A DNA stretch of 64,000 bases from Geoalkalibacter sp. (GTDB lineage Bacteria; Desulfobacterota; Desulfuromonadia; Desulfuromonadales; Geoalkalibacteraceae), in assembly GCF_030605225.1 (NCBI RefSeq), contig NZ_JAUWAV010000020.1:1-64000 (forward strand). Reading direction: 5' to 3'. The notes below the pieces were generated by a model that was given only the letters and a program-made list of their open reading frames with translations, was not told the DNA's origin and did not search any database. Position numbers and translations under genes: made by a program. Of the stretch, positions 34,816-37,854 are shown piece by piece (position 1 is the first letter of the stretch; each line of letters begins with the position of its first letter).

Positions 34816-34819
34816 GACG

Positions 34820-34849
34820 TTGACTTCGCCTTGGCCCCTGTGGTATTGA
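34820..34849 (+). promoter_or_regulatory. candidate promoter for the alanine leader
   Basis: TTGACT (34820-34825) and TATTGA (34844-34849) are 18 bases apart, ending about 54 bases before the leader peptide ATG. The -10 match is modest. Confidence 0.35.
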
Positions 34850-34902
34850 CTTGCATCCGGCCGCTCGTAGGCCGCGAAAACCTTTAATCCAAGGCATTTT
34901 CC

Positions 34903-34989
34903 ATGATCCATGCATCGGTGCGAGCTAGCAGCGCGGCCGCCGCGGCGACCGCAGCCCATTTTCAGGCAGATCGCTGTCGCATGGCGTAG
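34903..34989 (+). CDS. putative alanine-rich leader peptide (attenuator)
   Basis: A 28-codon frame opens with ATG at 34903, eight bases after AAGG, and ends with TAG at 34987-34989. Eleven of the 28 residues are Ala, with five consecutive Ala codons at 34933-34947 in the run SSAAAAATAAH. An intrinsic terminator follows at 35016-35047, and the next gene is an aminotransferase of the alanine-forming type. This is the layout of ribosome-mediated transcription attenuation, with stalling at Ala codons expected when charged tRNA-Ala is short. Two short pairings could compete with the terminator's left arm: 34980-34985 with 35020-35025, and 34954-34959 with 35023-35028. The region is GC-rich, so an accidental Ala-rich frame is a real alternative. 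Confidence 0.6.
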   Translation: MIHASVRASSAAAAATAAHFQADRCRMA

Positions 34990-35015
34990 TGTTGCGTTTC
35001 GCACGTGAAAACCCC

Positions 35016-35047
35016 AAAAGCCATGGGCAGCCGCTCGTGGCTTTTTT
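35016..35047 (+). terminator. intrinsic terminator in the aminotransferase leader
   Basis: AAAAGCCATGGGC and GCTCGTGGCTTTT form a 13-bp helix with two G-U pairs around AGCC, followed by six T (35042-35047). It lies 57 bases before the aminotransferase ATG and 200 bases after the bactofilin stop, so it may attenuate the former or end the latter. Confidence 0.8.
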
Positions 35048-35103
35048 GCATTCAAAGGACTTGGCAGCCAGAGCCGATTCTGGCCAGAACACGGAGATTT
35101 GTC

Positions 35104-36408
35104 ATGCGTAACAACATCGTGCACATCGGTGCGGGCGAACTGACCTACGAAATCCGGGCGATCGTCTCCATCGCCGAGAAGCTCAACAAACTCGGCATCA
35201 AGACCAACATGGAAAACATCGGCGATCCCATCGCCAAGGGTGAGAAAATCCCGGTCTGGATGAAAAAAATCGTCGCCGATCTGGCCATGAAGGATTGCTC
35301 CTACGGCTACTGCGCCACCAAGGGTTTGCTGGAAACCCGCGAATTTATTGCCAATATGACCAACTCGCGGGGCAAGACCCAGATCACCGCCGAGGACATC
35401 ATCTTCTTCAACGGCCTGGGCGACGCCATCCAGAAAGTGTACGGTTTTCTGCGCCGCGAGGCGCGCGTCATCGGCCCCTCACCCACCTACTCCACCCATT
35501 CCTCGGGCGAGGCGGCCCATGCCGGGCAGCGTCCCGTCACCTATCGCCTCGATCCGGACAACAACTGGTACCCCGATCTCGATGATCTGCGCCTCTCGGT
35601 CAAGTACAATCCGGCCATCAGCGGCATTCTCATCATCAATCCCGACAACCCCACCGGCGCGGTCTATCCCGAGCGCATCCTGCGCGAGATCGTGGCCATC
35701 GCCAAGGAATACGACCTGTTCATCATCTGCGACGAGATCTACCACAACCTGGTGTACAACGGCGAATCGACCAAGCCCATCTCCGATCTCATCGGCGAGG
35801 TGCCGGCCATCGCCATGAAGGGCATCAGCAAGGAGCTGCCCTGGCCCGGGGCGCGCTGCGGGTGGATCGAGGTGTACAACGCCGAGCGCGACCCGATGTT
35901 CAAGCGCTATATCCAGAGCATCCTCGATTCCAAGATGGTCGAGGTCTGCTCCACGACCCTGCCGCAGAAGGCGATTCCGCCGATCCTCAGCCATCCCGAG
36001 TACCCTAAGTTCCTGGAGGAGCGCAAGGCGCGCTACGAGCACCATTCCAACATCGCCTACGAGATTCTCAAGGAAGTGCCGGGCATCAAGGTCAATCGCA
36101 CCAACGGCGCCTTCTACATGAGCGTGGCCTTCAAGCCCGACCAGCTGACCGACCGCCAGACCCTGCCCATCGCCAATCCCGAGGTGAAGGATCTGGTCGA
36201 AGGGCTGGTCAATCAGCCGGGGGTGTCCCTCGACAAGCGCTTCGTCTATTACCTGCTCGCCTCGACGGGCATCTGCGTGGTGCCCCTCTCCTCCTTCTGC
36301 ACGCCGGAGATGGGCTTTCGCATCACCCTGCTGGAGCTCGACGAGAAGGAATTCACCAAGATTTTCAAGACCATCGCGGAGAAGATCACGGAGTATCTCA
36401 ATTCCTGA
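35104..36408 (+). CDS. PLP-dependent aminotransferase, alanine (AlaA/AlaC) type
   Basis: The 434-residue class I/II aminotransferase resembles AlaA-type alanine transaminases: ELTYEIRAIVSIAEKLNKLG, WYPDLDDLR, GILIINPDNPTGAVYPE and CDEIYHNLVY all have counterparts there. The PLP Lys is in KGISKELPWPGARCGW near residue 245, with the usual Arg-Cys-Gly-Trp after it. It probably makes alanine from pyruvate with glutamate, but aspartate or other amino donors cannot be excluded. ATG at 35104 has GGAG seven bases upstream. The Ala-rich leader and terminator upstream support a role in alanine synthesis. Confidence 0.85.
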   Translation: MRNNIVHIGAGELTYEIRAIVSIAEKLNKLGIKTNMENIGDPIAKGEKIPVWMKKIVADLAMKDCSYGYCATKGLLETREFIANMTNSRGKTQITAEDIIFFNGLGDAIQKVYGFLRREARVIGPSPTYSTHSSGEAAHAGQRPVTYRLDPDNNWYPDLDDLRLSVKYNPAISGILIINPDNPTGAVYPERILREIVAIAKEYDLFIICDEIYHNLVYNGESTKPISDLIGEVPAIAMKGISKELPWPGARCGWIEVYNAERDPMFKRYIQSILDSKMVEVCSTTLPQKAIPPILSHPEYPKFLEERKARYEHHSNIAYEILKEVPGIKVNRTNGAFYMSVAFKPDQLTDRQTLPIANPEVKDLVEGLVNQPGVSLDKRFVYYLLASTGICVVPLSSFCTPEMGFRITLLELDEKEFTKIFKTIAEKITEYLNS

Positions 36409-36465: not shown

Positions 36466-37854
36466 ATGACGACCTTGGCTAAGGAAGGACTGGAGGCGCA
36501 AATCCACGATGAGCGCGATCTGATCGCCTATCTGGCGTCGGGCGCCCGTGCCCCCGAGCACTGGGGAATCGGCGCCGAGGCGGAAAAGCTGGTCATCGAC
36601 GCCGAAACCGGCGAGGCGGCGCCCTTTGATCGCATCGAGGAGTTGCTGCTGCGCGTCGAAGGCCAGGGCGGCTGGCGCGGCATCCGCGAGGAGGGCCGCC
36701 TCATCGCCCTGCAGGGCCCGCGTTCTTCCATCACCCTGGAACCGGGCGGCCAACTCGAGCTCTCCGGCGAGCTCTGCCCGCACCTGCATTGCTGTCACGG
36801 CGATTTGACGCGTCATCTGCGGGCGGTGACGGGCGAGGCGGCGGCGCTCGGCCTGGCGTTTCTCGGCCTGGGCGTGCAACCCTTCACGCCCTTGAGCGAA
36901 ATCGCCTGGGTACCCAAGGCGCGCTACGGCATCATGGGTCCCTACATGCTGCGCACGGGCGATCTCGGGCAGGCGATGATGAAGCAGACCGCCGGCCTTC
37001 AGGTCAACGTGGATTTCAGCGATGAAGCCGATTGGCTGGCCAAGCTGCGGACCAGCCTGCTCCTGGCGCCGGTGCTCTACGCCCTGTTCGCCAATTCGCC
37101 GCTGCTGGAGGGTCGCCCCAGCGGCTTTCTCTCGACGCGCGGCGAAATCTGGTCACGCACCGACCGCGCGCGCACCGGGCTGCTGCCGGCGCTGTTTGCC
37201 GAGGGCGCGGGCTATGCCGGCTACGTCGACTATGCCCTCGATGTACCCATGTATTTCATTCGCCGCGAGGGGCGCTACCTCGACCTGACGGCCAGCCCCC
37301 TGCCCTTTCGCCGCTACCTGCGCGAGGGCTGGCGGGGTTGGCGGGCAACCCTCGGCGATTGGGATCTGCACCTCTCGACCATTTTCACCGAGGTGCGCCT
37401 GCGGCCGCAGATCGAGTTGCGCTCGGCGGACAGTTTGCCGCCGCGCCACACCCTGGCCGTGGCGGCGCTGATCAAGGGGCTGCTCTACGATCAGACGAGC
37501 CTGGAAGCCGCCGGCGCCCTGCTCCATCGCGAAGTCTATCCGCAGCTCGCGCGGATTTTCGCCGATTCCTGGCGCCTCGGGCTGCAAACTCCGACGGCAG
37601 AACGCAGTCTGCGCGAGCTCAGCTTCGATCTGCTCGTGCTCGCGCGCGAGGGGCTTGGCCGTCGGCGCGTGGCCGATCACCGCGGACTGGATGAAACCCT
37701 CTATCTGGAGGGGTTGGACGAGCTGGTCGCCAGCGGCGAGACCCTGGCGCAGCGGCTTTTGGCGCGCTGGCGGGGGTCGCGTCGGGAGAAAGTCCGGCTG
37801 TTGCTGGAGCATTGCGGGTTTGGCGATGGCACGGAAAAGCGTTTTTCGGCCTGA
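36466..37854 (+). CDS. gshA: glutamate-cysteine ligase, plant-type
   Basis: The 462-residue enzyme joins glutamate and cysteine, the first step to glutathione. It belongs to the plant/proteobacterial GCS2-type family: HWGIGAEAEKLVID at residue 30, LEPGGQLELSGE, the GIMGPYMLRTGDLGQAMMKQTAGLQVNVDF region, and DLTASPLPFRRYLREG. The ATG at 36466 has AAGG seven bases upstream; a TTG two codons earlier is less likely. gshB is not in the window. The next gene is a gamma-glutamylcyclotransferase-like protein in the opposite direction, which would belong to glutathione turnover. Confidence 0.9.
   Translation: MTTLAKEGLEAQIHDERDLIAYLASGARAPEHWGIGAEAEKLVIDAETGEAAPFDRIEELLLRVEGQGGWRGIREEGRLIALQGPRSSITLEPGGQLELSGELCPHLHCCHGDLTRHLRAVTGEAAALGLAFLGLGVQPFTPLSEIAWVPKARYGIMGPYMLRTGDLGQAMMKQTAGLQVNVDFSDEADWLAKLRTSLLLAPVLYALFANSPLLEGRPSGFLSTRGEIWSRTDRARTGLLPALFAEGAGYAGYVDYALDVPMYFIRREGRYLDLTASPLPFRRYLREGWRGWRATLGDWDLHLSTIFTEVRLRPQIELRSADSLPPRHTLAVAALIKGLLYDQTSLEAAGALLHREVYPQLARIFADSWRLGLQTPTAERSLRELSFDLLVLAREGLGRRRVADHRGLDETLYLEGLDELVASGETLAQRLLARWRGSRREKVRLLLEHCGFGDGTEKRFSA

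Follow-up and report, generated by a model that had tools for sequence, protein, structure and literature searches.

The gene for an AlaA-like aminotransferase in Geoalkalibacter sp. is preceded by a short, alanine-rich reading frame and an intrinsic terminator, which together appear to form a ribosome-mediated transcription attenuator that would read the level of charged tRNA-Ala. We put the probability of this reading, which draws on sequence comparison, at roughly 85%. It is most likely a case of a known mechanism with a new amino-acid specificity, and a conserved one. The initial annotation of this DNA had considered a new attenuator class; what is new is the specificity for alanine, whereas the mechanism itself would be that of the classic ribosome-stalling attenuators. 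Comparison between genomes supports the frame, its Ala codons, the terminator, an antiterminator formed by two segments referred to here as 2 and 3, the geometry of these elements and their link to one gene, and we infer the stalling on Ala codons, the response to alanine, alanine synthesis by the enzyme and an upstream protector pairing.

The locus lies in a stretch of 64,000 nt that is called the window in the following. Between a bactofilin gene upstream and the gene of the 434-residue aminotransferase downstream, there are a promoter-like sequence, the short frame and the intrinsic terminator (Table 1). Translation confirms the leader peptide described in the initial annotation, MIHASVRASSAAAAATAAHFQADRCRMA followed by a stop, with 11 Ala in 28 codons, five of them consecutive. 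The ribosome binding site, which had been called good, is present but rates as moderate, and of the two distances given, the 26 nt between leader stop and terminator stem hold, while the terminator lies 58 rather than 57 nt before the ATG of the aminotransferase gene. Among the 241 ATG-started frame ends of 20–40 codons in the window, the leader is the only one to reach at least 35% Ala. Its folding energy is unremarkable (z = −1.10), and an automated terminator scan called a shortened stem, as one of three sites in 3 kb, with 2.5 expected by chance. The promoter-like sequence was not flagged by a consensus promoter scan; a pattern of its kind, TTGAC-N12..18-[TG][AG]TGNTA no more than 110 nt ahead of the leader start, occurs in 53 of 69 leaders and in one of their 69 reverse complements.

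Table 1. Features of the leader locus and the genes downstream of it, in coordinates of the window
Feature	Position	Strand	Basis
Promoter-like sequence, TTGACT ... TGTGGTATTG	34820-34825 and 34839-34848	+	Comparative pattern
AAGG, putative ribosome binding site for the leader, moderate	34891-34894	+	Sequence; 8 nt before ATG
Leader peptide frame, 28 codons and stop, 11 Ala	34903-34989	+	ORF translation, comparison
Candidate segment 1 (potential partner of segment 2 in the absence of a ribosome)	34907-34926	+	Own versus swapped partners
Putative control-codon cluster, GCG GCC GCC GCG GCG ACC GCA GCC	34933-34956	+	
Segment 2, end of leader frame, predicted antiterminator 5' half	34973-34985	+	Covariation, sliding-window profile, stalled-state fold
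Segment 3, left arm of the terminator with the first bases of its loop, predicted antiterminator 3' half	35020-35031	+	Covariation, fold
Predicted intrinsic terminator: stem at 35016-35045, then U run	35016-35047	+	Fold, covariation
Putatively regulated gene, class I/II aminotransferase, NF005334/PRK06855, 434 aa, AlaA-like	35104-36408	+	Family match
Glutamate-cysteine ligase gshA, GCS2 family	36466-37854	+	Family match

The check on orthologous leaders that had been suggested in the initial annotation bears out the arrangement. Of 58 relatives, a set that includes the own genome, 57 were found to have the enzyme, and the best 80 of 521 named loci were added, among which the nearest orthologue, from a Geoalkalibacter sp. 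MAG, is 97% identical. Three loci with a match beginning past residue 1 were left out, and de-duplication by the last 120 nt reduced 108 loci to 93 distinct upstream regions. A strong terminator lies within 340 nt in 73 of these; not counting L055, which is cut off at a contig end, and the spurious L097, a short and mostly Ala-rich frame accompanies the terminator in 71 of the 93, with a median spacing of 25 nt between stop and stem (68 leaders). Of the 20 regions in which no terminator was called, L091 retains the Ala frame, followed by a degenerate T tail, and 14 regions at no more than 73.5% identity show no leader. Overall, the leader was not found in 15 upstream regions at up to 74.2% identity, nor in five at 81.6–83.4% (L026, L050, L058, L059 and L064), which keep the promoter pattern; above 76% identity, this pattern is kept in five of six regions without a terminator call.

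An alignment of 62 leaders (A1), obtained from 68 by removal of near-identical ones, served to build a covariance model (R1); one further leader, L077, was left out of the alignment and of the spacing and neighbour counts. In the genome of the window, R1 yields one strong match of 67.2 bits, with a runner-up at 22.4 bits. Within the class, 173 of 277 genomes have a match at E ≤ 0.001 (one listed match per genome) and 104 have none. Matches are found in 54 of the 57 enzyme-bearing relatives, partly by construction, because the model was built from 62 such leaders; the three relatives without a match, G022, G044 (which is L026) and G053, all belong to one family, f18. By these comparisons, the alanine leader is a conserved feature and not a product of chance.

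Its range extends to a second group of the class, the families f22–f25, which are probably the Geobacterales. Of 19 class-level regions inspected, 17 have the leader immediately before the enzyme (62–71% identity). One of these 17, L159, has only six Ala codons in its frame, and L169, which has a terminator but no Ala frame before it, was discarded as a false positive of R1. In the remaining class-level genome (L156), a gene that resembles a methyltransferase by eye (1036–1986) separates the Ala leader from the aminotransferase. Of the 54 loci of the second group, 51 could be parsed (all except L159, L169 and L250); leaving out eight that lie outside the class, are duplicates or have an early stop gave 43, and removal of near-identical sequences gave 33, with L251–L259 unused.

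A search of the phylum returned 23 genomes with matches, ten of them outside the class, of which five were inspected and the other five are weak. Four of the inspected ones combine leader and enzyme (L269, L271, L272 and L273), the leader of L272 being the same as L092, which is already part of A1; the fifth, L274, was rejected as a false positive. Conversely, the enzyme scores above the cut-off in 22 of 148 sampled phylum genomes, and among 21 of these loci that were inspected, the leader is present in five (L170, L171, L177, L182 and L187) and absent in 16, including L175 of the same class. The leader thus precedes the enzyme in five genomes outside the class (L182, L187/L269, L271, L272 and L273), and no other gene could be verified under its control in the own genome or in the inspected class and phylum regions.

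The leader peptides are diverse and alike mainly in their Ala content (e.g. MFISAAAAQAIQAASLRQPAVHHP, MMKTAAAARAFQAATLRLTTVHHPQR and MKGIALNMAAASARAISAAAFSAAGLPAAM). Ala accounts for 30.8% of the 2156 codons in 69 leaders, whereas frame +1 reaches 7.9% and frame +2 stays below that, and the same leaders contain 86 stops in frame +1 and 39 in frame +2. The excess over composition shuffles is significant (p < 0.05) in 65 of the 69. These counts are somewhat flattered, as the frame with most Ala was chosen, with a start that favours ATG and a ribosome binding site; the chosen start is ATG in 67 and GTG in two of the 69 leaders. L084 and L095 were left out of the counts because of their poor start choice. 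The Ala-poor extremes are L079 and L089, with five Ala each, and L095, with four as parsed.

The leaders contain 247 GCG, 220 GCA, 129 GCC and 69 GCT, so that GCA makes up 34% of their Ala codons versus 8% in the aminotransferase genes of the same loci (69 loci, paired test), and GCC 18% versus 58%. Two anticodons of tRNA-Ala, CGC and GGC, were found among the 30 of 37 tRNA loci scanned; the anticodon TGC was not seen among these 30 and may sit in the remaining seven or in unassembled rRNA operons. An Arg codon between two Ala codons is CGA in 37 of 38 cases, compared to 28 of 150 other Arg codons in the leaders and five of 232 in six genes of the window. The resulting CGAGC is found in 54 of the 69 Desulfuromonadales leaders, and in all 33 of the second group, CGAGCT is invariant including its synonymous positions (columns 16–21 of alignment A3). 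By eye, no pairing partner of this core was found; as a guess, CGA may be a slow codon ahead of the control run. Nearly all of the 33 leaders also show, by eye, a hairpin GCGGC..GCCGC within the Ala run, which is too invariant to be assessed by covariation.

It is these near-fixed elements, the CGAGCT core and the CGA between Ala codons, that lend some weight to a different reading of the leader, in which the attenuator would mainly sense a cue other than alanine, be it translation speed, the CGA codon itself or the nascent peptide, and in which Ala would in part be a structural, GC-rich filler. However, at most one Arg codon is fixed in this way, as opposed to usually 5–14 Ala codons, and CGAGC is missing from 15 of the 69 Desulfuromonadales leaders. 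Moreover, the peptides differ widely except for their Ala, the Ala codons vary at the third base yet remain Ala, and the gene that follows is AlaA-like. We therefore regard a non-alanine cue as unlikely.

The last codons of the leader (segment 2) are complementary to the left arm and loop of the terminator (segment 3). Over 71 leaders, the mean energy of this 2:3 duplex is −16.99 kcal/mol, compared to −14.26 kcal/mol (sd 0.29) with swapped partners and −11.23 kcal/mol with shuffled segments 2, statistics that ignore the relatedness of the leaders; in 43 of the 71, the own pairing is among the best 5% of its own shuffles. A sliding profile of the pairing with segment 3 peaks at stop−24..0 (z = −8.4), with weaker deviations elsewhere, such as z = −4.1 at stop−72..−48. 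In the second group, the own 2:3 partners likewise beat swapped ones (33 leaders, z = −3.9), and the interval at stop−60 also reaches −3.5.

In A1, nine of the 13 antiterminator pairs have changed on both sides and 74.8% of the cells are paired, versus 34–44% in slid controls, a comparison that favours the antiterminator in that its structure was derived from L053 alone. For the terminator, seven of 11 pairs have changed on both sides and 97.6% are paired. Alignment column 159 covaries both with segment 2 and with segment 4, the terminator partner of segment 3, and therefore both structures constrain the same base. Furthermore, the 2:3 pairing extends to bases of the terminator loop that the terminator itself could dispense with: in L082, which has the loop AATTC, GAATTGTCCAT is matched by ATGGACAATTC, and segment 2 follows the loop in the same way in L086 (AGTCTGTCCAT with ATGGACAGATC) and L020 (TTTTTCTGCC with GGCAGAGAAA).

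When the window leader is folded up to the terminator loop behind a ribosome that has stalled within the Ala run, segments 2 and 3 form a helix of 12 pairs; folded behind a ribosome at the stop codon, the leader forms the terminator. With the complete terminator transcribed, the stalled state folds as the terminator too, and therefore the switch must be kinetic, as is likewise the case in the trp attenuator. A further signal connects the region of the leader start to segment 2 (own against swapped partners, 69 leaders: z = −5.9 at start−12..+8 and −3.6 at start+0..+20). It is diffuse, variable in position and poor in Desulfuromusa-type leaders, and represents a candidate protector pairing (1:2).

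The existence of a terminator/antiterminator pair would also suit direct binding of alanine or tRNA-Ala by a riboswitch or T-box, next to which the frame would be incidental, and T-boxes are reported in Geobacter in the accessible part of PMC3766115. Here, however, the frame itself contains one half of the antiterminator, at its stop codon, and conservation is poor from the stop to the terminator. At the gathering score, Rfam returned only a tRNA in the window and nothing in five leader-bearing loci, and a search of the leader at E up to 10 gave only matches at chance level; on these grounds, we rejected a riboswitch or T-box as very improbable. Finally, chance, the main alternative in the initial annotation, would require no more than an Ala-rich frame upstream of an ordinary terminator, which a GC content of 63.8% makes cheap, but conservation, covariation and position across many genomes, together with the singularity of the frame in the window, rule this out almost completely.

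As a ribosome-mediated attenuator, the leader would work as follows. RNA polymerase would start just upstream, and a ribosome would translate the 28-codon leader. With plentiful Ala-tRNA, it would reach the stop codon and cover segment 2, leaving segments 3 and 4 to form the terminator, and the aminotransferase would not be expressed. With Ala-tRNA in short supply, it would stall in the Ala cluster, and the free segment 2 could pair with segment 3 ahead of the synthesis of segment 4, upon which transcription would run on into the aminotransferase gene and gshA. If the leader is not translated at all, an upstream pairing may occupy segment 2, and the terminator would form. The geometry of the leaders is in line with this scheme. 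At a distance of 16 nt or more upstream of segment 2, the leaders have a median of eight Ala codons, and therefore a ribosome stalled on them would leave segment 2 free; the 3' end of segment 2 lies a median of 7 nt before the leader stop, and therefore a terminating ribosome would cover it. Both arguments build on the size of the ribosome footprint.

The putatively regulated enzyme belongs to NF005334/PRK06855 (759.5 bits, cut-off 443), a family named just 'pyridoxal phosphate-dependent aminotransferase', for which we know of no tested substrate. Against the NCBIfam alanine aminotransferase PRK08363, it scores 195.6 bits, with a curated cut-off of 534. The closest solved relative by sequence is the glutamate-pyruvate aminotransferase AlaA of Escherichia coli (PDB 4cvq, 160.6 bits), with which the enzyme has plug residues in common: these are Tyr15, Ile17 and Arg18 in AlaA, according to the accessible part of PMC4094517, and all 68 of 68 orthologues examined have them, in the form YEIR. 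This partly supports the earlier proposal that the enzyme is the alanine-making transaminase, but an alanine dehydrogenase is also encoded in the own genome; judged by its sequence, the enzyme may make alanine. Among 14 control genomes, only that of Methanocaldococcus jannaschii has a PRK06855 match above the cut-off, which may hint at an old transfer between archaea and Desulfobacterota.

Downstream of the aminotransferase, 59 of 68 leader-bearing Desulfuromonadales loci have gshA on the same strand, at a median gap of 58 nt, and it is probably co-transcribed. It was not found in any of 21 leader-bearing regions from the second group and from outside the class (L150–L154, L157–L168, L170, L177, L182 and L187), 17 of which cover only 0.5–0.7 kb past the enzyme. 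Since regions without a gshA match still combine leader and enzyme, the leader tracks the aminotransferase. Four of the regions that have the promoter-like sequence and no leader (L026, L050, L058 and L064) have no gshA match downstream either. Since gshA follows the aminotransferase in Desulfuromonadales, alanine attenuation may control thiol synthesis there as well. More tentatively, and with considerable doubt, we consider that the leader might be tuned to a single tRNA-Ala isoacceptor, through the rare GCA and a programmed pause at the rare CGA that usually precedes the Ala run, and might via gshA couple the charging of Ala-tRNA to the synthesis of glutathione-type thiols in this order.

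In the trp, his, leu, thr, ilv and phe attenuators, codons for a single amino acid abound in a short translatable frame, the stop of which lies in or next to one half of the antiterminator. The terminator is located just before the structural gene, the hairpins are mutually exclusive, and a 5' protector pairing is possible. The alanine leader resembles these, and its geometry is of the trp/his type, with the Ala codons upstream of segment 2 and the stop in or just after it. It differs from the proteobacterial attenuators in its control codon, which is Ala, in the regulated unit, which is one aminotransferase gene, often with gshA, rather than a long biosynthetic operon, and in its occurrence in the Desulfuromonadales, the second group of the class and five genomes outside the class. 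With T-box riboswitches, it would share the coupling of tRNA charging to transcription termination; these need no leader frame and instead consist of a large conserved tRNA-binding RNA, and no T-box match was obtained in the window or in the five leader-bearing loci compared with Rfam.

Attenuation in proteobacteria was reportedly surveyed by Vitreschak and co-workers in 2004. The openly searchable literature, mostly without subscription papers, yielded no alanine attenuator. In its accessible part, PMC3766115 gives His, Leu, Thr, Trp, Ile/Val and Phe as attenuator specificities. The terms 'leader' and 'attenuat' are absent from that of the AlaA paper (PMC4094517), 'alanine' and 'Geobacter' from that of PMC2965389, and 'alanine' and 'leader peptide' from that of PMC545781 on metal-reducing deltaproteobacteria; what is available of PMC4117421 and PMC3840689 adds nothing on alanine.

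If the proposed attenuator is real, alanine would become one of the few amino acids to act on transcription through leader peptides, here among Geobacter, Desulfuromonas and their relatives, for which little on such control was found in the searchable literature. It would indicate a function for the PRK06855 aminotransferase family and provide a natural sensor of Ala-tRNA charging, and the strong shift toward the rare GCA is relevant to the choice of control codons in attenuators. In many related bacteria that reduce metals or sulfur, it would then probably serve to switch the enzyme on when alanine runs short.
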